Origin: Umbilicaria muhlenbergii
Lineage: Eukaryota; Ascomycota; Lecanoromycetes; Umbilicariales; Umbilicariaceae
DNA: 64,000 nt
Assembly: GCA_000611775.1 (NCBI GenBank)
Contig: KK106987.1
Coordinates: forward strand, 62,001-126,000
Reading direction: 5' to 3'
Positions 5,111-63,900 of this stretch are shown here, one piece after another. A program made the translations under genes and the position numbers. The notes under the pieces are model-generated. The model did no database searches. It saw nothing but the letters and a program-made list of their open reading frames with translations, and was not told the origin of the DNA. Numbering within the stretch: position 1 is the stretch's first letter; each line of letters opens with the position of its first letter.

Positions 5111-5111
5111 T

Positions 5112-6933: not shown

Positions 6934-6949
6934 GAGAAGGGGAATGCTG
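6934..6949 (+). other. Polypurine tract of chromovirus copy 1
   Basis: GAGAAGGGGAATGCTG lies directly before the 3' LTR and would prime plus-strand DNA synthesis. The same tract adjoins the 3' LTR of copy 2. Confidence 0.75.
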
Positions 6950-7230
6950 TGTCAGGGCCACCATATAATAGTATGACAGTACAACACTAATATGACATTA
7001 TAATATGACACTATAGTATGACATTATATAAATATGATGACTCAGCGCCTAGCGCCTTGGCATCAAGTGAAAACTCTTCACAAGGAGGTTCAGAAACCTG
7101 CTTCCTCAGTGATCAGTTTTGCCACTGAATAGAAGATGTATAACCACTGCATTGACCCTATCATGACTTTTGTCTACGACACCCCGTTCAAACACCACTA
7201 CGACGACCGTCATACACCCAGCCCCTTACA
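6950..7230 (+). repeat. 3' LTR of chromovirus copy 1 (281 bp)
   Basis: It begins TGTCAGGGCCACC and ends CCCCTTACA, and matches in reverse the two LTRs at 18216-18496 and 26119-26399, with the same length. It differs from them by more than transitions, so it may belong to an older or divergent subgroup. AT-rich blocks built on GTATGACA repeat near its start. Confidence 0.93.
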
Positions 7231-7324
7231 CGGAGACAGGTTCATATATTACTAAGTAATACTGTCACAAAATAGTAGGCTGAGACTGATTGTAGGCTGA
7301 TTTTTAATTGCTTGTTGAAGGTGT

Positions 7325-8030
7325 TGTATAATCAGGTGTTTTGAACTCTAGCAAAGTCATGTTCTACTGCAATTCAACAGTGAGACATGACTGCATTATA
7401 AGTCAATTCATCTCAAGACAGAGCTTGAGCAGTGGTGCTCTGAAATGCCCCAAAAATTCCATATGCCTCATTGTAGGCAGGGTCTTCATAGAGGTATAAT
7501 TGATCCTCTGAAGCAGCATTATTGAAGAGCTATTAAACTGTTAATAAAGGAGGTTTAAAAAGGAAGAAACTCACTGTTTTAAGCTTGTCTTCAAGCTCAG
7601 ATTCAACAAAAACAGGTCAATCTTTCTTCAGCCCTTCAAACAGCTCAATTAAGCTAGATATCAAGCCATCTGAGGTTACAATTGACTGATATTTGAAGCA
7701 GTGACACTTCTTATATTCTGAGTAGTAGACCTGCTGCTCCTGTTCAGGTCTACATACCTTTTAAAGGGTTTCATCAATGTAGCCTCAATAGCAGTCACCC
7801 CCTCCTGCAGCCAAAATTGCCCTGGAAAATGTCTGTAAGTGAGCCATTGTCAGCCTTCTAGGGTTTCACTCCATCATACCCTTAAATAGAAGGACTAGGT
7901 GGTGTACAACGTCATAGAAGACTGTTGATAGCCAGCTTCAAGACTTTCCAAATAGGTCACATAGGCCCACAAGCCGGTTGAGCCATGAAAGTCTATGTAA
8001 CAATAGGCAAAAGGCCTCCTCAGGGAGGGC
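7325..8030 (-). pseudogene. Relic PIF/Harbinger-like (DDE_Tnp_4) transposase
   Basis: Joining short frames on the - strand gives the signature of fungal Harbinger-type DDE transposases, which cut and paste DNA. The order is a helical part with LVGLCDLFGK and STVFYDVVHHL (about 8020-7900), a catalytic segment with YIDETL (about 7780), YYSEYKKCHCFKYQSIVTS (about 7700), LYEDPAYNEAYGIFG (about 7480), and IAVEHDFARVQN at the end (about 7340). The frame holds TGA at expected Trp and Arg sites, one TAA and at least one frame change, so it is dead. No terminal inverted repeats were found, so the outer limits of the element are unknown. Confidence 0.75.
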
Positions 8031-8952
8031 TTGATATCAGTTTTGATATTTGATTTTGTTGAGGCGGAGGAGAGGAAGGATTCATTGAATTTCAAGCTTG
8101 TTAAACCTGCTTTATGTTAGTTATTCCTGTCTCAAAAGGGAGGGGTTTAAAAACCGTAGAAATGCTGTTGTTTTGGCATTAGACCAGGCATCAAGGTTAA
8201 AGGGGGCTCAGAGGTACTCAATTGAAGACTTATACACGTATGAAAGAAGGGGTCATAGGCGTTGAGCACCCGTCAAAGTTGTATGACAGCAGCAGCAGCG
8301 GCGAGCATCATCCCATAGGTGGGCAACAGTAAGAACAACAGCAAGAGCAGCAGCAGTCTTCCTACACTGTAGGGAAGCCATGAATTTGAATCTAAATACA
8401 CGTATAAAGCAGGCGCCAACGCGTACGCAAAGAAAGAAATTATATTGGCCTAATTCGGCCATGGCCAAGGGCGGCGATGACCTAACGTGAATAGGTCTAA
8501 AGCCTGCATATGAGGTGGTAGGGGGGGGTTGAGGTGGCAGGGGGGTGCGAAACCTCTCTAATAGGAATCGAACCTATCATGTTACATAGGACTTCCAACA
8601 ACAGGCACACCAAGTCAGCAAGTGTTACTATTCGCCTAAATTCCAATAATACAGGCCCCACCTAGAGGCAGGTGCTCTATAGTGTTTTAGGAGTGACCCT
8701 GGCCCTAGCCGCGATAGCCTTTTGCCTGGGTTAGCTAGCTCATGTGTCATTATCCAATTCCTGCAGGCACACTGACTCAGCAAGTGTGTTCCTATTCGCC
8801 ACACTTTCCTACGACATCAGGCAATCGAAGTCATTCGGAGCCACTGGAATGATCCAAGACGTGCCGAAGGACTCACCTGAAACGAGCCGCTCTGCTCACC
8901 CTTTCTGGTAGTCCTTCAGGGTCAACGCCATCCCCCCCCAGAAGACGCCACC
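8031..8952. other. Non-coding stretch with short degenerate repeats
   Basis: No gene is supported. A motif of about 35 bases (AGGCACAC, then TCAGCAAGTGT, then CTATTCGCC) occurs twice, near 8604-8637 and 8765-8801. Short G-rich runs lie near 8520-8550. The last part is probably the promoter region of the gene that starts at 8953. Confidence 0.5.
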
Positions 8953-18215: not shown

Positions 18216-18496
18216 TGTAAGTGGCGGGGAGTACGACAGAGCGTCGTAGTGGTGTTTGAACAGGGTGTCATAGGCAATATAGTCATGATGAGGCCAATGC
18301 AATGATTATACATCTTCTATTCAGTGGCAAAACTGATCACTGAGGAAGCAGGTTTCTGAACCTCCTTGTGAAGAGTTTTACTTGATGCCAAGGCGCTAGG
18401 CGCTGAGTCATCATGTCTATATAATGTCATACTATAGTGTTGTACTATAGTGTTGTACTTGTCGTACTGTCATACTATTATATGGTGGCCCTGACA
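18216..18496 (-). repeat. 3' LTR of chromovirus copy 2
   Basis: On the + strand it reads TGTAAGTGGCGGGG to GGTGGCCCTGACA, 281 bases. It carries the mutated form (CA or TG) at most CpG sites where its partner keeps CG. Confidence 0.95.
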
Positions 18497-18512
18497 CAGC
18501 ATTCCCCTTCTC
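18497..18512 (-). other. Polypurine tract of chromovirus copy 2
   Basis: On the - strand GAGAAGGGGAATGCTG directly precedes the 3' LTR, as in copy 1. Confidence 0.75.
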
Positions 18513-19299
18513 ATGATGTCATCCCTGAGGTCAATTGACTCTGAATCTGTCATCATAGACATCATCATGATGGCCTGATAAGTGGTTGATCATGTAGAGT
18601 GAGGATGTGAAACTGCGCTAAGGTAAGGCTGATCACATGCCTCACTTAATTGTGATGATATCATGCCTGGCAGTAAGTTCCTCCTAACATAAACATTGAA
18701 ATCAAAATGTTTATTGTAGGTTCAAAACACTCTTTCCTTGTGTTTCTTCTTTGTCATCTCTCTTATGACATGTCATCATACTTCTCATGACTTTTTCACA
18801 GCTCATTGAGTGACCTGATGACTTCATGATGTCATCCTCATTGCAGAGGTGTTCACCTCATGAAGGGAGCATCATGAAGCTTGCAGCTCACAGCTCAACA
18901 TTCTTGTGATGTTGTACTTCCTGTCATACATCATATGGATGCTAACATGCTATATAGGCAATCAATACTCAAACTCTTGAACTCACGGTCACGGACAACA
19001 GTGGAGACCTGCCTCCGTCAGGGAAGCTCATTGATCTCTGAGCTCAATGTGATGAGGAGGGCTCTGAGTCAGAGTCAGTGAGTGAAACTGTGATGATCAA
19101 CATCTTCAGAAAGAGATGAGGAAACAGAGTGATAAAATCAACTGTTCAACACTTGAAGAGGGTCAGGTGTCTACCTTTGAGTGACATCTTCAACAGTGAT
19201 TTCTGCTCTGTGTGATGTCATGATGATACCTCACTGCCGGCTCATGTGCAGCAGGCTCATCATCATGAGTGTGTGATTTGAGAGAACCTCAGTCACACA

Positions 19300-19518
19300 T
19301 TGTCAGGTACTGCTCACTGTGACCCTTGTATAAGAGCTGAAGTTGATCACTGCTTTGTGTCAGACAGAGGAGCCTGCACGTGTTGCATATCTCTCTGCAA
19401 CCCTCATGAGCAATGCATGACAGAGTCTCTGATCATCACTGCTCTTGACTCTGAGAGCTCTGATGTTGTTGTCCCGGCGCATGTTTATGGTGATCAGAGG
19501 AGTGACAGCACACTGTAA
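19300..19518 (+). other. Conserved Cys-rich antisense ORF in chromovirus copy 2
   Basis: This 72-codon frame is antisense to the element and matches 5932-6153, including GACTCCISLCN, PHEQCM and the end in TL before TAA. Its start differs (MSGTAHCDPCIRAEVDHC). No function is known. Confidence 0.35.
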
Positions 19519-20260
19519 GTCTGCCTTCCTTAATCCCCTTTTGTTTTGTTTAGTATGACAAAGTGTTGTACTTTATGTCATACTTTTTGTCATACTTTAT
19601 GTCATACTTTTGTCATACTTTATGTTGTACTTTTGCATTGTTAACTAGTCATAGTGTTCAATGACTGATCATCAGATCCTCATGCTGCTGTCTTTTATCA
19701 ATCATTATCAGCACTCTTCACGCCCCCTGCAGCTGCTCCTCAACATGAGTCTCACAGCATTCATAATGAGGTGATTAATGTTAATTCAGTAATTCTGAGG
19801 AGCTCATTCAGGCTCTTGCTGTTTTACTGAAAAGCATTACTCACGCTCTCTGCATCCTCAATGCTCATCAATCTCATCATCATCAAGAGTATATTGAACT
19901 CTGTGAGCAGCACTGTGTTGAGGAGATGAGGTCAAAAGCCTCAGCAGATAGTGAAGAAGAGTTCAAGATGATGAAAGATAAATAAATAAATGAGAGTGAC
20001 TTGATGCAGCACTGATGAGGGGTTGAGTGAAGATGTTGATCTCAGATTCATTTTGATCTTTAAACCTGAAATGAAATGCTTCTGCGCTTGAGTGTTCTCT
20101 GCAATGTGACATGTCTGTGATAATGTAGTTCATGCAGTAATTCTATTAAAGATCCTGTCATAACATCATAGCATCATAGCCTCTGTCATACTTGTCATAG
20201 AGCACAGGCTCTGTCATAAGAGATTAAGTTAATAAAGCTGACAAAGTTTTCAGTTTTTAA

Positions 20261-20431
20261 GACTCATGACTTTTGTGACAGCTTCTCAATCAATTTTGAA
20301 GGGTCATGTCTTAAGACTCATGACTTTTGTGACAGCTTCTTAATTAATCTTGAAGGGTCACATCTTAAGGCTCATGACTTTTGTGACAGCTTCTCAATTG
20401 ATCTTGAAGAGTCATGTCTTAAGACTCACTT
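20261..20431 (-). repeat. 54-bp tandem repeat, three copies, in chromovirus copy 2
   Basis: Each unit contains CTCATGACTTTTGTGACAGC and a diverged TTGAAGGGTCA block. Copy 1 has two full units at the same place, so unit number varies between copies. Confidence 0.8.
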
Positions 20432-20439
20432 GAATTTCT

Positions 20440-23400
20440 GTTTGTCAGAGTTGTCAGCATGAAATTTTCACATTTTTGTCTTTACATTGCAGATGAAGTG
20501 TGTTGACTCTCATGTGTCATCTCACACCTGGTTCATCAGCTTTCATTTAATGAGGTATTGAAGCCTGCTGTCATGAACATGATTATTCACAATTGCCTTG
20601 ACTTCTCACTCATCATCTCAGTTGAGTAGTAGGTCTTTTCCTGCCAATGCAGAAGACACATGATGTGTGTCTCAAAATGACTTCAATAAAGTGATGTTGA
20701 ATATGTTATAAATGTTTTGATCCTCTGAGAGGTCAAGTTCATACAATGACTGATTTATCACATGTCATATCATGAATGAGCTGAGCTTTTTTCAATGCAG
20801 TTTCTTCATCTGCTTGTTCATTGACACATTCTTTTCATTGATCAGTATTAAATCACCTTCTTTGAATGTTATCTCCGTTCAGCGCTGATTATAATAATTT
20901 ACATACATCTCATTAACCTGTCATAACTGCTCTTAAGCTGTTGCAATTTGATCTTGAAGCTGCTGTGCATCTGCATAAGATCTTATTTATTCATGTGAGT
21001 GCTGTATAAGTGACCTACTTAAGTTCATCTGAGGGTCTCACTTTAAGTTAAGCTGAAAGGGGCTCTTTCCTGTAGCAGCATGTATGAAGTTGTTGTACAA
21101 GAACTTCATGCAGAGTAGAAGCTTCACTCAGTCCTCTTGCTGCTCATTAATGAATATGCATAAATACACCTTCAGGGACTGATTCTGCCTCTCTGTTTAA
21201 CTGTCAGTTTGCAGGTGAAAAGCTGTTGACATGTTATGATGACATCACATGTGAAAGCAGAAGCTGATTCACTGCTCTGATGTAAACAGCTTGTCTCTGT
21301 CTGTGATTAAGACTTTTGACACATCATGATGCTTGATTATGTTCTGAATAAACACTTCAATGAAGTCAGCAACTGACATTGTCTTCTGTACTGAAATATA
21401 GTGAGCCATTTTGGTCAACTTATCAACTATGACAAGGATTGAATCTCATGTCATATTTTCATACATGCTGCTCAGTGGCAGATCTGTAATGAAGTTCATT
21501 GTCATCATATGTCATGACTCAGTTGAGACTGACAATGAGTTTAATAACTTGTATGATTTGTGATGAGCTGACTTCACCTTTTGGCATTCAACACAGTCAT
21601 GACAGTAATGTTGTACATCTCTGACAGCATCAGGTCAGTCATAAGATCACTGCATTAATTTTGTAATTCTTGATTTCCTGAAATGGCCTGCAAAGACATC
21701 ATCATGAAATCAACTGATCACTGCATTGCAGAGGGCAGGGTTCTGTGAAATGTAAATCTTATCATCATAATATATGACATCCTCAATTTCCTCTCAACGT
21801 TTCATTATGTCAGGGAGTATTGTCATCATATTTGTCATTTCTGACCCGGTCAAGTTGTTTTTATCCTCAAGAGGGGTAGTTAATCCCTGTTGTACTCATC
21901 ATATCAAATCATCTTTCAACTGTTCAGTATGAATTGTACATTCAAGTTGTTCAATAAACATCCTTGTATAAGCTGTTATCTCCTCACCTAGGGGTGAGTG
22001 AGTAAACATGAGCTGAAGCGCTTCAACAGTGTCAGCAGAAGGAGCATTATCCTCAATTTAAAAGTTAATAAAAATGTGACTTGCATCATCATTCATAATT
22101 ACAGTGCCTGCTGTGTTATCCTTGATTGAATGCTGCTCAGGTTCTGCATACTCAGACTTTTTCATTCAGTCACAGCTTGCTTCTTGAGCATATAAGTCAC
22201 AAACTGCTGATGTTTCAGTCATATCATCAGCTTCAGTATTCATCATACTGATATGTTCATCACGGCTTGCTTCTCAAGCATGTAGGTCACAGACTGCTGA
22301 TGTTTCAATCATGTCATCAACTTCAGTATTCATCATACTGATATTATTCATTATGACAGATATGACATTCTTTTGTTGTAGCTCCTGTCATACTGAGCAT
22401 CTTGACTGCAGCATTATTGTAACAAGTGCATATAATTTCTCCTGCACTGACTTATAATCCTTGCTTCTTAAATGAAAGGACTGTCACATTATTTCAGTGA
22501 TGATTGAGGTACTGACAGCCTTCAGCAGTTCATAATCAGGTTGTCTTGATAGATCATCAGCAGAGTTCTTCTTGTCCTCTTGATATGTGACCTTAAAATC
22601 ATACTCAGTGAGCTTTTCAGCTCACTTGAGCTGCCTTCATGTGAGGTTTGAGGTAGTCATAAACCAAACAAGGTTTGTGTGATCAGTCAATATGATGATC
22701 AGGTGCCTAGCGCCTCAACAGTAGTGTCATTAATGATGCATGACTTTCATGATGACAAGGAGCTCTTGCTCATCTGTATCATATCAGATCTCAATATCTA
22801 GCAGCTTCTTGCTGTAGTAAGTAACTGATAATCAGTGCAATTGATCATTGACCTCAAAGTGTTGCATCAAGATTTCATCAATTGTGAATTCAGAGGCGTC
22901 TGTTTCAACCCTCATGAGTTTGTTTTCATCAAAATAGTGTAACAATGAAGCACTCATGAAGGTTTTCTTTAAAGCATTAAATGCTTTCAATGTGACTCCT
23001 GAGAGTGGAAAAGAGGCAGGTATGATGTTTTCTTATCATAACTCTCCTCTGACTTGCAGGTTGTGTGCTGAATATTCTGTATTAAATCTTCACAATGAGG
23101 TCAGGCTGTTCTGCTTTCTTTTAGTAACAGTCTGTTGAGACTGAAGAGAAGAGGATGATGTATCTTTAATCTTCTTTTTATTCTTTCCTGTTTTCAGGAG
23201 ATTTAACAGTGATGCTGTAATTCATGAATAATCCCTTATAAACCTTCAGAAGAAGTTAATGAAGCTTAAAAAGACCTGCAATTCATGAATGTTCTTTGAG
23301 GGTAATCATTCTTTGATGACGTGAATCCTTTCTGAACTCATATGTATGCCTTCAGTATTGATCTTAAACATCAGGAAGTTCACTTCTGTTGCATTAAAGA

Positions 23401-26062
23401 AGCATTTGCTGATCTTAAGATGAAGATCATGATGTCATAATGCAGTTAATACTTGTCATACATGCTCCTCATGTTCAGATTCATCTTTGCTGAAGATCAA
23501 GATATCATCTAAATAAATCATGCAGATTATATCAAGGAACTCATCAAGAGCTTTATTAATGAATGCCTGAAACATAGCAGGAGCATTCATGAGACTGAAA
23601 AGCATGACAAGATATTTGAACAAGCTGAATCATGTTCAGAATGCTGTTTTTCACTCATCTTCACCCTTGATTCATATTCAATTATATGCATCCTTGCAGT
23701 TCAGCTTAGTGAACTTCTTAACTCCTTGAAGATGATTCAACATGTCTGATATAAGTGATAGTGAGTAGAGATTTTTAATGATAATATCATTCAAGCGCTT
23801 ATAATCAATGACTAGTCATAGGCTGCCGTCTGATTTTGATACAAACATAACAGGTGAAGCTGCAGGTGATATTAATTTGCAGATTATGCCTGCCTTCATA
23901 ACATCATCTAAATATACCTTCAGTACATTGAGTTCAGCTGAAGACATCAAGTATAACTTTCTGAATGAAGGTTGCTGCTCTGATTTCAAGTCAATGACAT
24001 GATCATGTGAACCTCTCTCAGGTAAAGACTGCTTCTCAGCTGCTTAAAATATGTCTGTGAAGTCATGATATTCAGGAGGTAGACTGTCATAAACACTGTC
24101 ATACTTTTTGTCATATCACAATGAGTTCATCTGTAGGGTATATTTTTTCATATCAGTCACTAGGTTCATCAGCCCTATAAAGCAGTCAGTAATGATGAGG
24201 TTGTTCATACATAGAACATTCTTCAACACCTTTTTTTCATCAGTGATGAATATATGACATGCAGTAGTATGTTTTGGCTTTCTTCATAGGAATTTACCCA
24301 TATCATAGTAGTGATTTGAGTTTGCATGAACTAGAAATGATAACCTGAGGACAAAAGGAGCTGATGTGTTGTCTTGTGTGATAAAGAAACAATTGCTATA
24401 GCAGTAAAGTTAACTGTCAGTGTCATATGTTGTAATCATCAGTACAACAGACTCTGATAGCTCAATCACATTACCTCATGCATTACCTTGAGCCTCATAA
24501 GATTCAGTCAGTAAGAACAGCTTATTGACAACATCTCATGTGATTGTATTGCCCTGACTGCTGTTGTCAATAATATATGAATATTTTTTCTTCAGATCAT
24601 CTCTTGTCATATGAAAGTTCACCTCTAGCTGCTCTGATATCAGATGTGAGATATCATCAATGATAAATAAGAAGATGAGCTGAAGGTTGATCATGAGTCA
24701 TTTATTCACATCAACTGCAGTAGTGACTGCTGTTGATCATCTCATCATACATTCATTTGTTCAATGACTGATGACTTCACACTTAATACAGAGGCCTGCT
24801 GCTTTTCATGCATTCACTTCATTCTTAAGAATAAAATCTTCTTGTCAGCATGAGGATCCTGTGAACATCTGCATTGTTGTCATGATCACTTTCTCCGCAA
24901 CTGATATGTGATTTGAATTTCAGCTTTGATCACGGCTACTTCTTTAATAAAAGCCTCATGAATTGTTTCCTCTTCCATGATTGAATTGTTGAGGGTGAGA
25001 GGTTTGTTGTTCAGTGAAAGATTCTTTTCTGTCATAGTACAATGTCTGTGTTGTACTTTTGTCATTGTTGTCAGTTTTGCTTTAATGATCCTTTTTGGTG
25101 TCTGAGCGGCTTCAGAACAGTTCATGATTGATGATGACATCAAGATGTGCTGAAATTTCCTGCACTGACTGTCTTGCAACCTGCGTCAGATCTCAACATC
25201 ATAGTTCAGTCAGAACATGATAAGGAAGCCTTGATCATCAGTGATCTTGAATGAGTGTCTCATCAATTTCCTTGTGTGAAGCTGAAAGAAAGCAGTAGAG
25301 TTCTGATAATCTGTCATATCAGAAGGTGATTGTATCATGGCTGTGAAGTTCAACTGCATTGAAGGTGATGATATTTCATTCATTCATGTCTTCATCAGGG
25401 GATAGGTTCTTCTCTAGAATCTTTAGAAAGTTGTCATAAATGACTTAAGTGTGATCATGCTGCTTCTTTTGCTTTCATCATTCACTCATGACTGTTTTCT
25501 CAAGGTAGGTGCCTGCTCAGATGATGAAATCTCATTCAGTAAAGAATTGCTCTGACATCAGCTCTCAGTTCTGATTAATTTCATTCAAGTATTCTTGAAG
25601 TCTTCATCTCATGATTTTGACACCTCCTGCATAGAGATGAGGCTCTCATGACTTTATAAGGTGTTGAAAAGAGGGAGGTGCAATATCTGTCATAGCTCAA
25701 CATCATAATTCATGTGGCAAACCTGCGTCATTCTCTGAATTTGTCATAATTGAAGAACCTTCTTGCAGGTGTTGATTGAGCTTCTGAAGCTTTCTTTTAT
25801 TGTCCTCAAACTCAATTTCTTGTTGTATGCGTCATAACTGTAGTCACTGACACTTGATGACCTCCTGATTATGAGCAGTGACTGCCTCAAGGTCTTCAAT
25901 GATGTTGTTGAAGTTGCCTGCAGTGATATGTTCATCATCATCAATGATGTCAGAAGTAAGGGTATCAATGACTGATAATGTAGACCTGCTAATTGAAGGG
26001 CCTGCCTCAGCTTGATTGTCAACTGTTTCACTGACCTGATGAGATTGAAGCGTTGGTGCCAT
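20440..26062 (-). pseudogene. Broken gag-pol of chromovirus copy 2
   Basis: Gag begins MAPTLQSHQVSETVD at 26062, about 57 bases inside the 5' LTR. It ends with the knuckle CIKCEVISH followed by TNEC near 24745-24800, where all three Cys and the His survive; copy 1 has lost the second Cys. Protease follows (YSYIIDNSSQGN, near 24560), then reverse transcriptase (about 23200-24250, YLDD near 23510), RNase H (about 22560-22920), integrase (about 20700-21750) and chromodomain (about 20450-20620). The longest open pieces are 25744-26082 and 24886-25179. Stops are again mostly TGA. The product would build particles and integrate the element; this copy cannot make it. Confidence 0.9.
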
Positions 26063-26102
26063 CGTGTCTTATTTGCTTTCAACGTGACCGTTCGCCCGAA
26101 GG

Positions 26103-26118
26103 TACTGAGCGATCAGTA
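26103..26118. other. Perfect 16-base hairpin at the primer position of copy 2
   Basis: Directly inside the 5' LTR the + strand reads TACTGAGCGATCAGTA, a 6-bp perfect stem with a four-base loop. No TGG-type tRNA primer site is seen here. It may be a self-structured primer region or coincidence. Confidence 0.5.
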
Positions 26119-26399
26119 TGTAAGTGGCGGGGAGTACGACAGAGCGTCATAGTGATGTTTGAACGGGGTGTCATAGGCAATATAGTCATGATGAGGCCAA
26201 TGCAATGGTTATACATCTTCTATTCAGTGGCAAAACTGATCACTGAGGAAGCAGGTTTCTGAACCTCCTTGCGAAGAGTTTTACTTGATGCCAAGGCGCT
26301 AGGCGCTGAGTCATCATGTCTATATAATGTCGTACTATAGTGTCGTACTATAGTGTCGTACTTGTCGTACTGTCGTACTATTATATGGTGGCCCTGACA
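26119..26399 (-). repeat. 5' LTR of chromovirus copy 2
   Basis: 281 bases, the partner of 18216-18496, followed by the target duplication GAAAC at 26400-26404. It holds a tandem cluster of GTCGTACTATAGT units near 26328-26375, CpG sites that are mutated in the other LTR. Confidence 0.95.
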
Positions 26400-41960: not shown

Positions 41961-42143
41961 TAATAGATATGCTAGATAGATAGATAGATAAAAGGTATCT
42001 AAGCATATGGTAGATGTTGTGCAGCTCGTACATAAGTAAGTGATGCAAACTCTGCATGCTATATGGGGTCCTCGCCACCCCTAGCGGCAGCCTTACTAGG
42101 CTGCCTCAGCTGGAGTACTTGAGTTTAGGCGCACTATTCAACA
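41961..42143 (-). repeat. 3' LTR of the deleted copia element
   Basis: 183 bases, ending ATTCAACA on the + strand, with a TAGATAGATAGATAGAT microsatellite near its outer end. The tract GCAGGGAGAG on the - strand adjoins it as a polypurine tract (42144-42153). Confidence 0.92.
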
Positions 42144-43661: not shown

Positions 43662-43844
43662 TAATAGATATGCTAGATAGATAGATAGATAAAAGGTATC
43701 TAAGCATATGGTAGATGTTGTGCAGCTCGTACGTAAGTAAGTGATGCAAACTCTGCATGCTATATGGGGTCCTCACCACCCCTAGCGGCAGCCTTACTAG
43801 GCTGCCTCAGCTGGAGTACTTGAGTCTAGGCGCACTATTCAACA
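43662..43844 (-). repeat. 5' LTR of the deleted copia element
   Basis: 183 bases, nearly identical to 41961-42143; the differences seen are transitions (for example CGTACA/CGTACG and TCGCC/TCACC). Confidence 0.92.
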
Positions 43845-51721: not shown

Positions 51722-51978
51722 TGTTGTAAGGAACGATTATTTAGAGGCCAAATAAATGTATTGTATCTGCCTAAATATCGCCCAAATGATATAAATGAAC
51801 GTGAGGAAGAAAGCAGAAACTTGAAGCTTTTGAGCTGTTAATATACATGTTAAGGAGCTTTTCGCTAAGCCAAAACATACGTACACCCATGACGTGACTG
51901 CTTCTCTTGCTAGGAACCCCTGCCCTAAACCCCTGCCTCAATGACGTCTGCTCAGCGGTGAATCAGTGAAATTCAACA
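51722..51978 (-). repeat. 3' LTR of the copia element
   Basis: On the + strand TGTTGTAAGGAACG to GAAATTCAACA, 257 bases. It is the more mutated of the pair, with TG or CA at sites that are CG in the right LTR. Confidence 0.93.
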
Positions 51979-53491
51979 CTCCCTCTTCGGCTTCGCTGCC
52001 AGCGGCTTTCAGGGGTAACTCTGAAACATAAAATGAATAAAATAATGTTTAATGAGCGTTAGATTTGGCCTCTGTAAGTGGTAGGTAAAATGGCGGCCAA
52101 AATGGCTCAACTAGAACTGAAATAAAAACATGAGTAGACAACCACGTGCTCTGAAGACCTAGGGAGTTCGTCGGAAGGGGATTTCAGTACGCTCTTTCAA
52201 ATGGTCATACTGACTAGGCTTGAAAAAGCAGTCCTGAAGAACCCTAAGCGTTGATGAGATCAAGTAGGGAAAGTTCAGTCTGGAATTTCTCCCTCGTAAG
52301 TGACTTCGTCAAGCAGTCGGCAGGCATATCAGCAGTAGGGATGTAGATGAGTATAATAAGGCCGTCTTCTAAGGCTTCCCTTACATAATGGTACTGCACC
52401 TCAATATGCTTGATCCTGACGTGGAATTCAGGATTTTTGGTGAGCTTCATGCTCAACTGGTTGTCCTCATATAATTGGGCTGGAGAACAGTTTAAAAACC
52501 GTGTTAACTTGACTCCTTTAAGCCACTCCGTGATCCAGGCTGCTGTCTTGGCGGCGTTGCATAATTCAACATATTCAGCCTCAGTGATTGATGTGGCGGT
52601 GGTCTTTTGCTTTCAGCTAGATCATGATATTGCTCCCTCAGCAAGAGTAAACACATATCTGTATGTGAACTTCCTGTCTGTGGCGTCTTCAGCGTAGTCT
52701 GAGTCTGAATAGCCCTTTATACTCATAGGGGTAGTCCCTGAAAATGTAATTTTCAGGTCTTTCATGCCTTGCAGGTAATGAAACACACGCTGCAAGCCTG
52801 CTCAATTTCAGACAGACGGGGCGTGGCAAAATTGGCTGAATTTGCTCACAGTGAAGGCCAAGTTCAGGCGGGTGACAGTCATGACGTACATCAGGCTTCT
52901 GACCGCCTTTTGATATTTCAATTGGTCCGTCATTGACTCATCATCTAGGGCTGGTTTTATGTATTCATAGCCGTCTATTGGTGTAGAAACGGCTTTTGAA
53001 TGATTCATAAAGAACTCCTTAAGAACCTTGCTAACATAAGCATATTGATCAATCATAAGGGTTCAATTTTTTCAATTTCAGCGTATTTGAATTTCAAGGC
53101 AGACATTTGACTCACTCAAATCCTTCATATTGTACGCCTTTTGAAGCTTCATTTTAACTTTCGTAATTGCTTTCATTTCCTTCAAGAAAATGAGCAAATC
53201 ATCAACATAAAGGGCAATAATTACCCCTGAATTCTCATTTAGAAAAACAGAATTATCTCTGAACAGTCTGACAAACCCTAGGTCATGTAGGGTGGCTCAG
53301 AAGGTGTTGTTTCAAACTCATTCAAACTGCTTTAAATCATATAACCCCTTGATTAAATGGCAGGCCATTTTCTTAGACCCCTTGTATGACAACCCCTCTG
53401 AGAGTTTCATATATATTTCCTCTTCAAGCTCACCGGTGAGGTATGCGCTAATGATGTTCATTTGGTGTATATGCATGTCTTCATACGCTGC

Positions 53492-53496
53492 AATAG
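53492..53496. repeat. Target duplication AATAG, left of the nested chromovirus
   Basis: Repeated exactly at 60103-60107, on the other side of the nested element. Confidence 0.93.
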
Positions 53497-53929
53497 TGTA
53501 ACGGGTGGTGTCGTAGTGACGGGGATAGTACAATCATTCAATGAACTATACCAATGTTCATCTAACCACGGCGCTTGGTTCAATGAACTACTGATCATAT
53601 GTAGACTTGAATAAGCTAGAAGGCAGTAGACTTATGAGATTGCATTTGATACATGAGTTGAGCATGAGCTCCTAACTATGAATCTACCTGTGGTTATATA
53701 GTACTTTAGAAGACTCATGTGTGACTGTACTGCTTTATGTGTATAATCTTACTGCTCAGGGTGCTCATGCCCTGAGCACCATGAGTGGTTGAGTGCTTGA
53801 GGTGCTCATGCCCTGAGCATCATGAGTGATTGAGTGCTCAAGGTGCTCATGCCCTGAGCATCATGAGCAGTATCACATGTACGCCTGCTACATGTATCAA
53901 CAAGGTACTGTTAGGTGAGAGGTGTAACA
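53497..53929 (-). repeat. 3' LTR of the nested chromovirus
   Basis: 433 bases, TGTAACGGGTGG to GAGGTGTAACA on the + strand. Its right part holds three units of about 43 bases, each containing GGTGCTCATGCCCTGAGCA, itself partly self-complementary. Confidence 0.95.
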
Positions 53930-54479
53930 CTAGCTCTCCTCTCAACATTTTCATCCTTGAAAACTCAACCTTCCTCATGCCTTCATTCAGTATCAGAAAG
54001 AAGAAGTCATTCACTTTTCATCATTCTCATCTGGCTGATTTGATCACCAAAAACGGATGAATTGTCATGTGAACATGCAGTCACTGTCTAATCAGTGGCA
54101 AGGAGTGCAAGATGTTGAATGATTGTGACAAGTGTGACACCTGCGTCAGGCTGAGTGTTTCTTGCAACTTGTTCATATCTCTGAAGGAGATCAACAAGGT
54201 GAGTGCAGAGATTCATCACCTGAAAAAGGAAAAGGATGCCGTCACGGCACAAAAGTGAGAGATGAAGGTGAAGAAAGAGAGACTTCACAAACAAATCACT
54301 TTTTTAAGGAAGAAGCAGTCAGACTTGATCTGTACTGAACTTCAGAACATTGAAGAGCTGAAGATGAATGAGTGCATGACTGCTGTGACTGCTGATCTTT
54401 CTATTAAGCCTTCACTTGACTTTCTTGCATCTGAGGCTTTCAGCCTTGATGATGTGAACTGACTTCCTGCAGGTTTCTT

Positions 54480-57400
54480 TGATGGAACTGATGCAGTTTC
54501 ATCACACAATGAGTGAGATTCTCCTCTGGCTCTCATGTGTTTCCTTCACTGTTGTATCCTTTTCATTTGATCAAGTAGTGTGACTCATCATTTATGTTTT
54601 ACTGATCTAGGATTTCTTCTACCTTGAATTCAGCATCTTGACTCTTCAGGTTGATCTCTGGTGATTTCTCTTGTATTGATGTTTTCAGGTCTGCTGATTT
54701 GAGTAGTGATACATGAAATACTGAATGTATTCACATAGTGAGTGAAAGCTCAAGCTCATAGTTGACGCTTCCTTTAATCTTTGCAATTTGAAAAGGTCTC
54801 AACTTCATGTGGTTCAATTTATTGTTAAGTCATTTAGTCTTGATATTGTGACATAAGAGGTATACTTTATTCCTCTCTTTGAGAATAAGTCCCTTATCTC
54901 TCTTTTTATTATGATATACCACTGATCTTTCTGAGGTAAATTTGATGTCTCTTTGTAGCATTTCATGCAGGTTCTTGAGGTGATTCACTTGTACTTTAAC
55001 TTTCTGTGCTATCATTACTAATCCCCTGGCCTCATTCATAGCTGAGTTGAAATCATAATTGATGTAGAATGATGATACTTCAGTTGTCTCTGTTGCTGCT
55101 GAGTTGTATGTTAACTGAGCTATCAGTAAGAGTTCTACTCAATTAATTTGCTGATAATTAACATAACATCATAAGTACTGTTTCATAGTTTGATTTAATC
55201 ATTCTGTCTGCCCGTCCATCTGAGGATGATATGACGTTGATAACTTGTGATGTATTCTCAACTGGTTCACTAATGATTTTCAGAACTTGAAGGTAAAGAG
55301 TTTATCTCTATCAGAGATTATCTCTTCTGACAGTTCATGATTGACTGTTATAACTCTTAAAAACATATATGTGAGTTCTTCTGCTGATGATGCTTCATTA
55401 TAAGGTATGAAGTATCTGTACTTCATAAGTCTGTTGATGATAATTAATATTGAATCATAAACTGCTCTCATCAGGGGTTCTTTTGACTTTGATAGCTTAA
55501 CCACAAAGTTTAATGTGATACTTGCTCATGGTCTCAATGGTGTTCTTGATGACTTGAGTAAATCATATGACTTATGTTGATCTGCTTTGCTTCTTCAGCA
55601 GATGTCACATTTTCAGATGATTTCCTCAACCTTCTTCCTCATGTGTGAGAAGTAATATGTTCTTATGAGTCATTCTATCATCTTGTTGATTCCTTGATGA
55701 TCATGTGTCTTGTTGAAATGACTTTCTTTCATTAGTTTTCATTGAAGACTAACAGGAATGTAGATTAAGTCTTGAAAAAGTAGTAAGTCTTTCTCCTTTT
55801 TAAAGTTTTCATGATCTTTAATATTCTGAAGAATCTGCTGTGCTAGCTTATCATTCTTCAATGCTTTTTGAATCTTGTTTTTAAAAACATCATCCTCAAC
55901 CTGTATGATGAGGTTGAATTGTCTGTTGAAAGACATGTTCCCTTGCTCATCCTCCTGAAGGATAGCATGACTGATGACTGACTTATCTTGTAAGTAATCA
56001 GCTCATTGACTGAGAGCATTCACTTTGACATTCTCTGATTCTTTTCAATAATGAATTCTGAAATTGTACTGTGATAATTCTTCTGATCAACGTACCTGTC
56101 TTTGATTTAAGACTTTCATTGTCATGAAATACAACAGATTTTTGTGATCTGAGTATACCTGAACCTCATGTTTAAGTCCTTTCAGATACACACGTCATTG
56201 CTTGAATGCATCAACAATAGTTAACAGCTCTTTGTCATGTATCTCATAATTCATTTCAGCGCTTGAAAACTTTCTTGAATAAAAAGCTACTGGCTGTAAA
56301 CATCTCTTATCATCTGACTGATTGATGCATGCTCCTATAGCTTCATCTGATGTGTTCATCTCAAGCGTAATAAGTTTCTCAGGGTCAAAACTCATGAGAA
56401 TTGATTAAGAAGTGAATCTCTTCTTCAACTCATCAAAGGCTTTTTGTGCTTCAGGTGATCACTTGAATTTCTGATCTTTCTTGATCAACTCTGTTAGAGG
56501 TGATGTGAGTTTTAAATACTTTTTGATAAACTTTTTATAGAAGTTTGTGAACTCAAGGAAGGACTGTACTTCCTTGACATTCTTTAATATTAATCATTCA
56601 ACCACAGATCATATCTTCTCAAGATTCATTCATAACCTTTCTGATGTTACAATGAAACCTAGGAAGTGTACTTCCTTGAAATGAAAAAGACTTTTCTCAG
56701 GCTTTACTCATAATCCTGCATCTTGAAGTGCTTGCAGGACTTTTCAGACATGCTGAACATGCTGCTCCTTTGACTTGAAGTAGATCAGTATGTCATCAAG
56801 GTAGATGATCACAAACTGATTCAAGTATTCTCACAGTACATTATTGATAAAAGCCTGAAAAGTTGCTGACGCGTTTGTCAATTCAAAAGGCATTACCAGA
56901 TACTCATAGAGTCTGAACCTCATTCAGAACACAGTTTTTCATTCATCTCCTTCTTTGATATGAATCTGGTTGAAGGCTCCTGAAATATTGAACTTGATGA
57001 ATCATTACACTCCCTGAAACTGATCCTGCAGTTCTGAAATGAGCAGCAAAGGGTAACTGTTCTTGATGATAATGTTGTTCAATGCTTGATAATTGACACA
57101 CAACCTGAGTGAACCATCTGATTTTGGCACAAACAGTATTGAATATTCAGCTGAAGATTGTGATTCTTGTATGAATCCTTTTCACAAATTCTCCTTTAAG
57201 TATTCTCACAAAGCATTTAACTTCTGAGGTGACAATGAGTAGATAAGTTGCTTCATTGACATGCAACCTTTCATGATCTTAATTTCATGATCTCATTCTT
57301 GATGTTTCAGCAAGGCGTCCTGATCCTTTACAGTCATAAACAATTCTTTGAAGTCTTTGTATTCTTTAGGGATAGATAACTTGATAACAAAGTCTCAGTC

Positions 57401-59628
57401 ATTGTTGACTCACCTGCTTCACAGTACCTTTGCATCAGGATTCTTCAGTTCCTCACATGTTTCTTCTGCTGACATAGTGAAAATCTTCACTCCTTCAGGT
57501 GAGTTCAGGACTGAATATAACTTGTTCAGATTATCACCCTTAACAAAGTATATCTCATTTTCAGCTCAATTGATCATCAGATTTGCTGCTCAGAGTCATG
57601 ATATCCTCAGGACTATATCACTTCCTGGTTGCTTCATTATGTTGAATTGAATCTTCTCCCAATGTCAACCTAAATGCATGAGAGTGGGAACCGTCTCTCA
57701 GTTTACTCATTCATTGTTATACTTCATAAAGGTCTCATTGAACCCTTGAAGTTTAAAGGGATTCTGCTTCACCCGTGTTTGAATTACATGTTTCACAGCA
57801 AATCCTGAGTTCATGAAGTTCCCTGTGCAGCCACTGTCTATTAACAGTCAGGCTGATTGATCATTGACTTTGACTCAGACATGAAAATTGCTCATGTCTT
57901 CCTGTGCTGCAGCAGTGAATTCCTTCTGTCATTCACTGCTTGAAGGCTTTGAAGTAAATGTCTTCAGAAGCCTCTGACCTGAAGGGCCTTCTAGTTTTTT
58001 GAACTAAAAGAGGAGAAACTTAAGTTCTTTTCTACATACTTGAAGTCTTCTGGATTCACTCTCTGAGCTGAATGTTTGCTCAGATCTCTTTTGAAGTATT
58101 CACTTCAGAGTTCTCATACTTTCATGTGAAGTTCTCATGAGATGTGTGCTTCATCAAGGGTAACATATCCTCCTCTGATGATGAACTGAGAACCTTTCAG
58201 AGGTATCTCCTTGATTATATCTCAATAGTTGATGTCCTCACAGTTTTGCTTCTGTGTAAATGCATCTCAAATAATGTAAAAGATCTGATCCTTTACCTTC
58301 TTTATTCACTTCACATACTCTTCTTTCTTACTGAGGGCATTGAGTATTTCAGTGTATGTTTGAATTCACCTTTCTTCATGAGTAGTTAATCATTCATCAT
58401 TATCTTCTTTCATAAGTTCCCCTGAATCTTCAGAAGATGCTACTTTCATGAACTCTTCCTCCTCATTAGATGAGGGTATTGTATCATCACTGTCAACATA
58501 ATTGCTTTTCAAGTTGAACTGCTCTCACCTGTCTTGATGTTGTTCTATGTCTGTGATGAGGTCTCTGTGAGAGGCTGCAGCATATTCTTTTGCCTTCTTT
58601 GATTGACATGAAAATCATTCAGAGCTGTCTTTGTCACTTCAGTGAACTGTGCAGCTGTCATCATAACAAGCTGTTCAGAACATAGTGTTATGCTGAACTG
58701 ATTATTTCAGTGCTGACTTTTTGAGAGCGGCGGCATATGTCTTCTTTTTTGATGAAAAGGTTTTTGTTGAGATTTAACAATTGCATGTGAAATGTCCTGA
58801 CTTCTCACAGCTATAGCAATTTTCTTTGATTTTAGTACTCTTGAGTAACTGCTTGATTCTCTTCTGAAATCAATTTCTTCAGAAAGTCACATCAATCTTC
58901 ATTGACTGAGGGCTGTAATAAGGTTGATTATTATACTGAGTGCTCTCATGAGGCTTGTTTGCTTTCAGTGGTACATAGTTCTTCTGACTTTTCTTCATAG
59001 ATCTTTATCATCTTTCATACACGCGGTTGTTGATAATGACTGATTTTTCAATCATCTTGACCAAGGTACTTGATCACTCTGATTAAGAGATTTCATCTTT
59101 GATGAAGTCCTTCAGGCCTTTGTAATACTGCATAGTCAAGGCAGTATCATCTCAATTCATGTACATGACATGTCTTTGAAAGTTTGCTGCATATGTTGTG
59201 ACAGCTCCTTTCTGCACAATATTGCAGATTTCTCACTTCATGATCCTTTTCTGATTAATGATCTCAAACATGATTCTTATCTGCTTCTTGAATTCTTTCA
59301 GACTGAAGAAGATCTCATTTGTCTCATCATCATGATCCTTCTTCTCATTTTTCATATAATCTCAGAGGGTCAGCTCAAATCAATTGAGGGCATCAGACCT
59401 CAAGTAAAAGAATGTATACAATACTTTGTCAGACTCCTTCTTGAACATGATATGATTGAGGTGAATGTAAGTATCAAGCTGAGTGAGGAATGAACTCAAC
59501 ATTCTACATTCCCTTAAGAACTTGTCTGATGATGAGATCTTGATCTTCATCCTTGATGATGTCAGGCTCCTCATGACTGATGAGTCACAGCTGAAGGCTG
59601 TCATCCTTTTGAGGAACTCATGAGTCAC
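54480..59628 (-). pseudogene. Broken gag-pol of the nested chromovirus
   Basis: Gag starts MTHEFLKRMTAFSCD at 59628 and ends with an intact knuckle CYSCEKSGHFTCNC (58783-58817). Protease-like frames follow near 57800. Reverse transcriptase covers about 56400-57250 with IIYLDDILIYFK near 56790-56815. RNase H holds TLEMNTSDEAIGACINQ (about 56350) and [13 protein letters not shown]. Integrase spans about 54750-55850 (EIISDRDKLFTFKF, YHPQMDGQTE). The chromodomain at about 54490-54640 has VEEILD, then YLIK-KGYNSEGNT-EPEEN, where both dashes are Trp sites read as TGA. The small frames of 54262-54536 are shadows. Confidence 0.9.
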
Positions 59629-59669
59629 AGTTCATTTCATGACTGATATCTTGAAGTTGATGCTCAAAA

Positions 59670-60102
59670 TGTAACAGGTAATGTCATAGTGACGGGGATA
59701 ATACAATCATTCAATGAACTATATCAACATTCATCTAACCACGGCGCTTGATTCAATGAACTACTGATCACATGTAGACTTGAATAAGCTAAAAGGCAGT
59801 AAACCTATGAGATTGCATTCAATACATGAGTTGAGCATGAGCTCCTAACTATGAATCTACCTGTGATTATATAATACTTTAGAAGACTCATGTGTGACTG
59901 TACTGCTCTATGTGTGTAACTTTACTGCTCAGGGTGCTCATGCCCTGAGCATCATGAGCAGTTGAGTGCTCAAGGTGCTCATGCCCTGAGCATCATGAGC
60001 AGTTGAGTGCTCAAGGTGCTCATGCTCTGAGCATCATGAGCAGTACCACATGTACGCCTGCTATGCGTACCAACAAGGTACCATTAGGTGAGAGGTGTAA
60101 CA
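59670..60102 (-). repeat. 5' LTR of the nested chromovirus
   Basis: 433 bases, partner of 53497-53929, followed by AATAG (60103-60107). It has the same three 43-base units near 59925-60045. Confidence 0.95.
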
Positions 60103-63100
60103 AATAGCCAGAAGCATGCGTAGTGAGTTGAAATGTAAGGTTGAGGCAAAGGTTTCTTCATAGTCAATCTCATATTGTTGGGAAAATCCTCTGATGACTA
60201 GCCTGGCTTTGAAGCGCTTGATAAGGTCACTGAAAGTGTATTTAACCTTGAATACTCATTTAGAAGTGATTGATTGGCGCCCTTTAGGCAGTTCAATCAA
60301 TTCTCATGTCTCATTTGCTGTCAAAGAATTTAACTCTTCTTCTATGGCTTGTAATCATTGATGTTGATAGGTAAGGCTTCAGACAGCCTTCTTGTACATA
60401 GAAGGCTCATGTATATGCTCCTGCACTGTCATATTAGCATAGTGAGGGTTTGATTTCATTATTCAGCCAGATCAAGTAGTGTATGGCACTGAGGCCTGCT
60501 GCCGCAGCGGCCTCAAATTCTGCTTCAGAATTTCAGTGGCTGATTCAGAGGTCAAGTGTATGATTTCAGAGGCTTCTTCAGAGTCAGAAGAACCTTCCTC
60601 ATTATCCTCAGCTTGTTTCAGTTGCATATCATTGTTGTTTGAATTTTCTTCAAAATTTTCAGTTTGATTTTCAGGCCCCTGAGTTGACGTCAGAGGCTCT
60701 GATAAATTCATCACTGCTTCAGGGCCTTCAGGGCTTGAAGACATTACTCTCTCACTTTCAGTGCACCTCTGAGCAAGTTCCTGTGGCGTTAAAACCACTG
60801 AGTAATCATCATCATCTGTATATGAGTTCATGAAGTCCTCATTTGCTTTGAAACATTCTGAATTTTCCAGTAGGCTTCCGCCTTTCTCTCTCTTGAGGAA
60901 CAAAATGTGCATATGTATTTCCACCTGCTTTTTCACTTGATTTCAGACCTGAAATTGCTGGTTGCTCTTACAATAACTCATGAAAACCCCTTTATAAGAC
61001 GTGTTTTCAAGTTTCACCTGTTTTTCCTTCAGTATATGGCAATGAACAACACACCTGAATGAGCATAGGTGTTCAATGAAGGGTTTAAACCTTTTATATA
61101 ATTCATATGAAGTCCTTCCTCCATGGTCATCTCCTAAAGGAAGGTGATTCTTTAGGTAACAGACAGTTTTGACAGCTTCACCTCAAAATTTAATTGATAA
61201 TTGAGTGTTGTAAAGCATGCATCTAGTTGCTTTCATAATCATATGATTTAAGCGTTCAGAGACGCTGTTCTGCTCAGGCGTGTAGATGATGATAAATTTG
61301 AATTTCACCCCCTCTGACCCTCATATGCTTGCCAATTTCATATATTCTCCGCCATTGTCAGCCTGTACAACCTTCAATTTCTCATCAGTTTCTTTCTCAG
61401 CTTTCATCTTTCAAGTCTCAAATATTTCATAGATATCCATCTTCTTTGCCATTAAGAAAATATCAGAATATCAGGCAAATTCATTCATAAAGGTAACAAA
61501 ATACTGGTTTTCACATAAAGTATTAACACAGTAGGCTCCTCAAATGTCTGAATAAACTCATTGCAGATGTTTTATAATCATTGGCTTTGACTCCTTGACC
61601 TGTACCTGTATCATCTTGTTATGCAAGCATGTTGAGCAGGCTTTCTCTGCCTCATTAGAGTGTAATTCACGGGTTATACCCTTCACACACGGCTTGAGGT
61701 GTTGCATACAGCTTGCCTCAGCATGGTCAAACCTCTGATGTCACTTTCAGTAGTCAGATTGAGCCTGTGTGGAAAAATTGAAATTTTCAGAGGTTTCAGA
61801 GGTAATGTGCCCTAAACCTGTTTTTGAATAAGAGGTGATGAAACTGGCAATCATGCTGCCTGATACTGCTCTCATTAACTCTGAAGTGAGTCTTGATGTA
61901 GGTGATCCTCCCCCTGCTGTCACTGAGACTGTCAGGCTGCTCATCAATTTTTGATAAGCTTGAACCTTAAAGGCCACTTTTGCGCTCATTGACTTGACAA
62001 CATAAACTGAACTGTGTTGGTTTGCTGTGATCATGACGCTTTCATTATGCTTAAAAACAACATTTTTAAGCTTAAATTCAACTGTTATTCCGTGCTTGCT
62101 TGCTGCCTCAATCAACAACAAATTTCCATCCAATTCAGGAACATAGAGGACGTCATTTAGAGTGAGTTTTCTCCCTTCAAAATCAACTTTCACCTTGCTC
62201 ATACCAGCTGCTTTTATCAAGTGCTCATTGACTAAGCAGACTTCCATGTAATAGTTCTGAATTTCAACAAAAATTGCTCAATTCAGAGTCATGTGGTGGC
62301 TCACTTCAGAGTTCACAATTCAGCAGTTGAGGGTTAATTCTAGGTTGACTAAGGCTTTCATAGTCACTGCCTTTCATGCTCACTCATCTGAGTTGAACTC
62401 ATTGTCCTGGCTAGTCAGATCTTTCAAATTTTTCAAATCTTCCACCAGCCCCAGATTTTCATTGGCTTGCCGTGCATTTGCCTTGAACTTTGGCAGTGAT
62501 TTAACTCTGTTAGAAGGTAGTTCTTCCCCGTCTTTCATCTTCAAAGCGTAGTAATCAGAGGTGAAATGCCCTCTTTTCTGACACTGAAAACATGTTTTTC
62601 CTGTCTTGTCATCTTTGCCTTTGCTTCCTGCTTGAGCTGCATTTGCAGTGGCATTATTAGTCAATTTATTATTCAACGCTTCTTCCATTTCTCACTCCTT
62701 CAATTGGCGTAGAACGGTCTTGATTTCAGGGTTCATGATTTCATTGTTTATTTGAAATACAACTGAGCTGTAAGGCTCCTCCTTTAAAGAGTCAAGGAAC
62801 ACTTCCTGAATCATGTCATCATTGATGAGCGCCTTTGGTTTAAGCATCATAATCTTCACCTGAATTTTCTTCAAGGTGTGATAAGCCTGCTCCGCCGTCT
62901 CCTTCAGTCCTTGCTTGTAATTGATGAATGCTTTAAGCTGTGACTGATAATACAACTTGCCCTTAAGCTTCTTGATGTTCTCAAGGCGGTCTTAAAGCTC
63001 TTTTGCTGTCTTCAGTTTGTAGAATGTTCTGTCCTCCTGGGAGCAAAGTGACAATATGTTGTTTCAGGCCTTCTTATCAGTCCTTCTCCACTTCTTATAC

Positions 63101-63643: not shown

Positions 63644-63900
63644 TGTTGTAAGGAACGATTATTTAGAGGCCAAATAAATGTATTGTATCTGCCTAAATAT
63701 CGCCCAAATGATATAAATGAACGTGAGGAAGAAAGCAGAAACTCAAGGCTTTTGAGCTGTTAATATACATGTTAAGGAGCTTTTCACTAAGCCAAAACAT
63801 ACGTACACCCATGACGTGACTGCTTCTCTTGCTAGGAACCCCTGCCCTAAACCCCTGCCCCAATGACGTCTGCTCGGCGGCGAATCGGCGAAATTCAACA
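63644..63900 (-). repeat. 5' LTR of the copia element
   Basis: 257 bases, less mutated than its partner (for example TCGGCGAA against TCAGTGAA). G-rich DNA follows to the window end. Confidence 0.93.

Follow-up and report, generated by a model that had tools for sequence, protein, structure and literature searches.

Repeats of the lichen fungus Umbilicaria muhlenbergii carry C-to-T mutations with a preference for adenine at position +2, probably the mark of repeat-induced point mutation or a close relative of it

A preference for CpA is common to defences of the repeat-induced point mutation (RIP) kind, as stated in a 2025 survey of 1,239 fungi (PMC12543289). The same survey describes 130 species with strong recent signatures in four classes, which do not include Lecanoromycetes, and lists Lecanoromycetes for non-coding k-mer enrichment (PMC12543289). 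Known departures include targets such as CpG together with CpA (PMC2621366), CpT (PMC4352252), and TpCpG (PMC5381629). Here, we describe the mutation of repeats in Umbilicaria muhlenbergii (Lecanoromycetes, Umbilicariaceae), starting from a Ty3/gypsy retrotransposon located at positions 53497–60102 of a 64,000-nucleotide stretch of DNA (the window), which corresponds to positions 62001–126000 of contig 7 (KK106987.1) in a genome of 34,788,950 bp and seven contigs. A preliminary description of the window had proposed that this element underwent RIP-like hypermutation with a preference other than CpA, and the alignments of three repeat families presented below show such a process. A rule based on adenine two positions downstream of the mutated C (+2) was not found in the consulted parts of the literature on RIP-type contexts, nor was CpCpA found there together with repeat-induced point mutation, and CpNpA and TpCpA were likewise absent from the papers checked for them; the main text of a paper on the transposable elements of Umbilicaria pustulata mentions neither RIP nor point mutation nor CpG. 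The 2011 survey of ascomycete RIP contexts by Clutterbuck, mentioned in PMC4352252, may include related preferences.

The gypsy element is 6,606 bp long, has its genes on the minus strand, and is bounded by two 433-bp long terminal repeats (LTRs), the left one at 53497–53929 and the right one, which is the 5′ one relative to the coding direction of the element, at 59670–60102. Sequence comparison identified the target-site duplications AATAG at 53492–53496 and 60103–60107. An RT_RNaseH fragment at 56195–56404 on the minus strand (Pfam PF17919, E 2.4e-20; PF17917, E 6.7e-17) types the element as Ty3/gypsy. The alignment of both LTRs had 37 differences, all of them transitions and without gaps, as the preliminary description had estimated. 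Their contexts were CpG (17), CCA (7), CTA (6), CTA/G (1), CTT (2), CCT (1), CAC (2), and CAT (1), and 12 of the 17 CpG differences fall in six pairs where TG in one LTR faces CA in the other, an arrangement also rightly described as common. All 12 within-element LTR pairs compared in the genome showed this pattern, with 382 transitions, two transversions, and no gap columns. The most frequent contexts were CpG (173), CCA (64), CTA (57), CCT (20), CTA/G (16), CTT (15), and CAA (10), followed by CCC (7), CTC (6), CCA/G (5), CTG (5), CAT (2), CAC (2), and CAG (0). Of the changes in the window pair, most in the left LTR affected plus-strand C (13 of 16) and most in the right LTR minus-strand C (16 of 21), a strand clustering that was absent over the 12 pairs, where same-strand neighbours numbered 177 of 358 (198 expected). 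Both LTRs were changed in each of the 12 pairs, but very unevenly in two of them (3 to 28 and 2 to 33); these two are the gypsy copies L020 and L021, in which one LTR is almost unchanged against 28–33 changes in its partner.

The genome contains at least 42 matches to the gypsy LTR, with scores for 40 of 361 first-look candidates. Thirty-four full-length copies were used in a column analysis, with six near-full-length copies omitted and two partial ones omitted by the length filter. The fraction of T per column was highest at CGA (0.67) and CCA (0.61), followed by CCG (0.47), other CpG (0.31–0.37), CTA (0.25), and CCT (0.23), and it was low at CAA (0.15), CAG (0.09), CCC (0.08), CTT (0.06), CTG (0.05), CTC (0.02), CAC (0.01), and CAT (0.00). 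When individual sites were tested, C followed by a pyrimidine and A had a mean of 0.37 (24 sites) vs 0.088 for C followed by two pyrimidines (55 sites; p 1e-5), and CpG (46 sites) differed from CpA (62 sites; p 2e-16); these p values are a guide, since the copies are related. T at position −1 did not raise the value of CpG sites (0.34 vs 0.41–0.51 for the other bases). Comparisons between the 34 copies gave 21571 transitions and 1983 transversions.

The interior of the element (53930–59669, minus strand, GC 0.366), in which TGA is the main breaker of coding frames, was compared with 12 other genomic copies. The 13 interiors form 78 non-independent pairs, and C contexts were scored where the flanks were equal in both copies. 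A total of 42528 transitions and 2912 transversions were counted, and TG/CA pairs numbered 6118; the window interior and that of copy L016 differed by 451 transitions and 9 transversions. The rates of change decreased in the order CGA (0.80), CCA (0.59), CGT (0.32), CGC (0.30), CTA (0.29), CGG (0.21), CCT (0.14), and CAA (0.12), with the lowest values at CAT (0.030), CAG (0.013), and CCG (0/404). The GC content of the 13 interiors, 33–38%, is what one would expect if few contexts were targeted. The same rule was found in a second LTR family, one copy of which (1–7230) is cut by the start of the window, and another of which, detected by self-comparison, lies inverted at 18216–26399 with 281-bp LTRs at 18216–18496 and 26119–26399. 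An 800-bp piece of this family matched the genome at least 40 times, and a single piece compared with Pfam gave no match. All nine differences between the 281-bp LTRs are transitions, and 34 pairs of 12 loci yielded 8712 transitions and 846 transversions, with rates of 5/7 at CGA, 0.68 at CCA, 0.40 at CGT, 0.27 at CTA, 0.26 at CGC, 0.15 at CCT, 0.14 at CGG, 0.11 at CAA, 0.006 at CAG, and 0/94 at CCG. The order of contexts is nearly equal in both families. When a logistic model was fitted to disjoint pairs, six from one family and five from the other, omission of position +1 or +2 worsened the deviance by 381–545 units, that of +3 by 69–96, and that of −1 or −2 by at most 16. Positions +1 (G>C>T>>A) and +2 (A) had similar weight in both families, and +3 had a slight effect (A or T).

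The clearest test came from a DNA transposon, which provided a nearly unmutated reference. Its contig-1 copy bears a DDE_Tnp_4 fragment (PF13359, E 3.2e-11), from which we class the element as Harbinger-like, and it has short inverted ends. The contig-7 copy was split by the LTR element of the second family into a left part at 59309–60980 of the contig and a right part at 7231–8562 of the window. Genome searches with two pieces of the element found just one other place for each, on contig 1. Over 3,005 aligned columns there were 168 sites with T in the contig-7 copy and C in the contig-1 copy, 22 in the reverse sense, and 12 transversions; the right part holds 67 of the C-to-T changes, all within 7242–8297. 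The 168 changes were divided between strands (79 and 89). With the contig-1 copy as the reference for context counts, the changes affected CCA (62/99), CGA (18/32), CGT (10/35), CGG (8/39), CTA (17/85), CGC (10/52), CCG (5/40), and CAA (14/124), and far fewer were found at CCC (5/89), CCT (9/163), CTG (4/123), CAT (2/80), CAG (2/125), CTT (2/143), CAC (0/71), and CTC (0/122). C-N-A was changed in 111 of 340 cases vs 57 of 1082 for any other C (p 7e-36), and in 93 of 308 vs 29 of 956 when CpG was left out (p 1e-37). By dinucleotide, the counts were 18/400 at CpA (4/276 for CAT, CAG, and CAC together), 46/158 at CpG, and 81/391 at CpC, so CpA is not the preferred target. At −1, T was not favoured when the contexts were pooled (T 58/372, A 32/279, C 42/388, G 36/382). 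An artefact of polarity, with C wrongly assumed to be ancestral, is unlikely given this near-intact copy. The contig-1 copy also has a low-complexity tract (about 1100–1450 of locus L052; poly-Glu or poly-Lys in frame), which is mostly missing from the contig-7 copy.

The mutated tract does not reach the ends of the repeated segment: it stops 187 bp short of the left one and 265 bp short of the right one, and the DNA directly outside the segment has ordinary CpG and CCA counts. Spread from the adjacent LTR element into a unique flank at 7231–8297 was considered and is judged improbable: the segment is part of a transposon with a second copy on contig 1, its left half beyond the LTR element is also mutated, and the tract terminates within the repeat at either end.

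The order of hits at CCG and CCA identified the base that decides. At nine LTR sites with C or T in the middle and G or A in the third position, selected by a strict filter (at least three copies still with C at the first position), T occupied the first position in 81 of the 98 copies with A and in 14 of the 208 with G. A looser filter gave 133/150 and 58/258 at 12 sites; it admits columns with a single C, where T may be ancestral, and the strict filter gives the same direction. With T in the middle (two sites), the first C was mutated in 11 of 32 copies with A third and in 0 of 36 with G third; with A in the middle (CA[G/A], three sites), the values were 11/13 and 21/89. The high LTR value for CCG (0.47) arises largely because it includes copies whose G had already become A. 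When the CpG was intact in both copies, the first C of CCG was never changed (0/404 in the gypsy interiors and 0/94 in the second family), and against the Harbinger-like reference it changed in 5 of 40 cases. These results indicated that an A in the third position makes the first C a target, and that a neighbouring CpG does not account for the mutation of the first C of CCA.

The context rule is thus CGA and CCA first, then other CpG, and then CTA and CAA, with CpA nearly spared. Adenine is needed at +2, one base beyond the +1 position of classical RIP. Of the proposed formula, CpG plus CCA, both targets stood, and the rule behind them is better stated as A at +2 preceded by G or C, followed by the weaker contexts. 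The consequences for coding frames are those the preliminary description had read from the window, with CAG and CAA codons surviving and TGA as the usual stop. Classical RIP turns CAA into TAA and CAG into TAG. In the RNase H frame, between 55000 and 58300 on the minus strand, there were 42 TGA, two TAA, and one TAG; CAA was still present 31 times and CAG 34 times, CGA was missing, and TGG occurred once. TGA stops dominate because CGA and TGG (CCA on the opposite strand), both of them targets, become TGA. Elsewhere in the genome, SNF2-domain fragments at C2:654906–655493, C3:4547608–4548201, and C4:4427580–4427894 contain 4–10 in-frame TGA and 0–2 TAA; these stops fit the same rule, and the fragments are possibly a repeated element or mutated gene duplicates.

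Mutation was confined to repeats within the stretches examined, namely, the gene-rich parts of the window, the methyltransferase loci described below, the outer flanks of the Harbinger-like segment, and six of 15 matches to 5S genes. In the gene-rich parts of the window the observed/expected ratio (o/e) of CpG was 0.64–1.04 per 2-kb step, except for 0.42 at 42001, and those of CCA and CGA were 1.15 and 0.98. In three AT-rich 6-kb blocks CGA/TCG occurred twice in total (o/e 0.01), and the ratios of CCA and TCA were 0.17 and 2.82. The CpG o/e was 0.91–0.93 at the three apparently intact methyltransferase genes, and each of the six 120-bp 5S genes kept five CpG and seven CCA/TGG. Neither of the findings that had been named as contrary to the proposal was made: CpA was among the least mutated contexts in the copies examined (18/400), and the bias of the AT-rich blocks was not found in the gene-rich parts of the window. 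The usual RIP indices of the AT-rich blocks (TpA/ApT about 0.5; (CpA+TpG)/(ApC+GpT) about 1.6–2.0) point the opposite way, and therefore scans based on these indices would tend to miss such C-to-T-rich repeats. Two short repeats were also noticed in the window, one of 257 bp (51722–51978 and 63644–63900, 96.5% identical) and one of 183 bp (41961–42143 and 43662–43844, 98.4% identical), which together have 12 differences, all transitions, six of them CGA to TGA. Over the repeats of 183–281 bp, the few changes were all transitions (21/21), mostly in the same contexts.

A search of the genome with the PF00145 profile found four places (L009–L012), among them one gene each of the RID and DIM-2 types, which the preliminary description had suggested looking for, and a DNMT5-like gene. 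The best solved relative of the DIM-2-like gene (L009) is PDB 9bap (E 4e-173), which we take to be DIM-2, the entry itself naming only a DNA cytosine-5 methyltransferase; its BAH match (E 4.3e-7, 30.3 bits) is slightly below the Pfam cut-off of 30.8. The RID-like gene (L010), apparently intact, spans two reading frames, each with PF00145, that a plausible intron separates, and carries the motifs PPCQFFS and LEQT. We take PPCQ/PPCQFFS and LEQT as marks of RID; among the best 120 of its 238 relatives, 118 had PPCQ, at least 103 PPCQFFS, and at least 104 LEQT. In the same best 120 of 238 matches, the nearest named relative was the protein of Lasallia pustulata (69% identical; Lasallia belongs to Umbilicariaceae, Lecanoromycetes), and that of Umbilicaria vellea was 59% identical over 56% of the query. 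The DNMT5-like gene (L011, contig 5) matched PDB 7r76, named Rad8 (E 8e-64), and has an SNF2 match at C5:2352186, 2.7 kb downstream of the PF00145 match. The replication-focus domain of DNMT1 (PF12047) had no match in the genome, the control genomes being equally silent. The fourth place (L012, contig 1) is a decayed partial relative of L011, 79% identical over 947 columns with 55 transversions. It showed a weak C-to-T bias, with 20 CpG lost vs nine in the opposite direction, and such identity, transversions, and bias made it uninformative as a gene-duplicate test of mutation.

Near-pure transitions, restriction to repeats in the stretches examined, and the presence of RID- and DIM-2-like genes fit RIP. 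C5-methyltransferases show a preference on the 3′ side of the cytosine (CpG, CpA, CHG), and the 3′-side rule observed therefore fits an enzyme of this type and not an APOBEC-type deaminase. We consider it likely that the repeats are mutated by a RIP-type C-to-T process in which cytosine methyltransferases of the fungus itself act with a preference for C-S-A (S, G or C). The process would be directed at repeats and would presumably work via methylation, with RID as first candidate enzyme and DIM-2 as second; its target would be read 3′ of the C (+1, G or C; +2, A), and more weakly at CpG, CTA, and CAA. It would presumably act premeiotically and be triggered by homology. Several observations weigh against this reading. 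The usual mark of RIP, a preference for CpA, is missing (18/400), and a few CpA sites of the LTR were clearly mutated. RIP usually affects both members of a pair, but two of the 12 LTR pairs and the Harbinger-like copies (168 to 22) are unequally mutated; arrival of the latter copies at different times could explain their inequality. The excess of transitions is smaller between copies (42528:2912, 8712:846, and 21571:1983) than within elements. The repeats of 183–281 bp, under the usual RIP length, are also transition-only, and may belong to larger repeats. Finally, in L012, the partial relative of the DNMT5-like gene, the bias is weak at most.

Three other explanations were weighed. CpG could decay by loss of methylated cytosine while a separate RIP prefers C-C-A and C-T-A, a combination that we regard as rather unlikely and that overlaps with a single C-S-A process, so that the two are not exclusive. 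CpG was indeed raised with any base at +2 (CGT 10/35, CGC 10/52, CGG 8/39), and C-H required A (93/308 vs 29/956), but A at +2 raised CpG too (CGA 18/32), and an additive +1/+2 rule was fitted whose terms agree between two families. Less probable still is slow decay, in which DNMT5 or DIM-2 would methylate repeats vegetatively at CpG and C-N-A and spontaneous deamination would follow, with no premeiotic RIP. CpG is a strong target with common TG/CA pairs (6118 over 78 gypsy pairs), a DNMT5-like gene is present, DNMT5 maintains CpG methylation in Cryptococcus (PMC7862722), and decay of methylation has been proposed for the CpG changes of basidiomycete repeats (PMC4352252). However, as a product of neutral ageing the excess over transversions would be very large (382 to 2 in the LTR pairs; 451 to 9 between the window element and L016), and therefore an active process fits better; in addition, CCA was mutated as often as CGA in the Harbinger-like copy, and very low levels, about 0.012% and less, are reported for CpG 5-methylcytosine in thalli of other Umbilicaria species (PMC12492740). 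Decay of CpG methylation as the sole cause was rejected on the mutated CCA (62/99), CTA (17/85), and CAA (14/124) and the hardly mutated 5′ C of intact CCG. Action of a cytidine deaminase, APOBEC-like or other, on retrotransposon complementary DNA or single-stranded repeat DNA is very improbable. In its favour, the change is almost purely C-to-T and retroelements are affected; against it, both strands were mutated (79 and 89), so was a DNA transposon, which has no complementary DNA, and the 5′ base, by which APOBEC and AID select their targets, had little effect; APOBEC-like editing is disfavoured by the 3′-side rule and the DNA transposon, with no search for deaminase genes made.

For the RIP-kind process favoured here, one specific origin seems to us to have somewhat less than an even chance: that RID, or DIM-2, of the lichen lineage came to recognize adenine a base further downstream, with C-[G/C]-A in place of C-A, giving a three-base RIP that writes TGA from CGA and TGG and leaves CpA mostly untouched. 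If true, the specificity of RIP would be an evolvable property of the part of the enzyme that recognizes the target, and genome surveys based on CpA/TpA indices would have a blind spot. Comparing RID and DIM-2 of lineages that follow a +1 adenine rule with their counterparts under a +2 rule would offer a handle on what determines the sequence preference of RIP. The species has been described, as U. muehlenbergii, as transformable (PMC3999499).

The gypsy element is nested, inserted within a Copia reverse transcriptase gene, as judged from pieces that flank it on both sides. A minus-strand piece at 60061–60255 covers profile positions 30–78 (PF07727, E 1.6e-9), in an open reading frame overlapping the LTR end by 42 bp, and its continuation at 53318–53533, also on the minus strand, covers positions 69–125 (PF07727, E 1.5e-11), in a frame overlapping the LTR start by 37 bp.

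The pattern shares features with several described systems. As in the RID and DIM-2 pathways of Neurospora crassa, C-to-T changes affect both strands of repeats, stops inactivate them, and RID- and DIM-2-like genes are present. N. crassa RIP is described as needing A at +1, that is, CpA (PMC12543289, PMC7862722), whereas the Umbilicaria repeats have A at +2, CpA at 18/400, and new stops that are mostly TGA instead of TAA or TAG. The MATE elements of Aspergillus nidulans, an ascomycete with a RID-type gene, also have CpG as main target, but CpA is described as the second target there (PMC2621366, PMC7862722), while in Umbilicaria CpA is nearly spared and CCA leads. The hypermutation of TpCpG in Microbotryum is likewise a trinucleotide preference containing CpG (PMC5381629); it differs in its preference on the 5′ side (T at −1) and in its host, a basidiomycete for which no RID gene was reported as found (PMC4352252), and in Umbilicaria the 5′ base hardly matters. 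The repeats of Tuber melanosporum, an ascomycete with RID- and Dim2-class genes, have CpG-biased transitions, although the contexts described are CpG with CpA or, in one passage, CpT, and the passages on them mention no +2 A rule (PMC4352252). Another described case is Cladonia rangiformis, a lichen fungus of the Lecanoromycetes with RID and DIM-2 homologues and mutated retrotransposons, whose DNA derived from transposable elements is described as peaking at about 16% GC (PMC12542154), unlike the 33–38% of the 13 Umbilicaria gypsy interiors. Against these systems, the Umbilicaria pattern is best read as RIP, or a close relative of it, with a shifted sequence preference.

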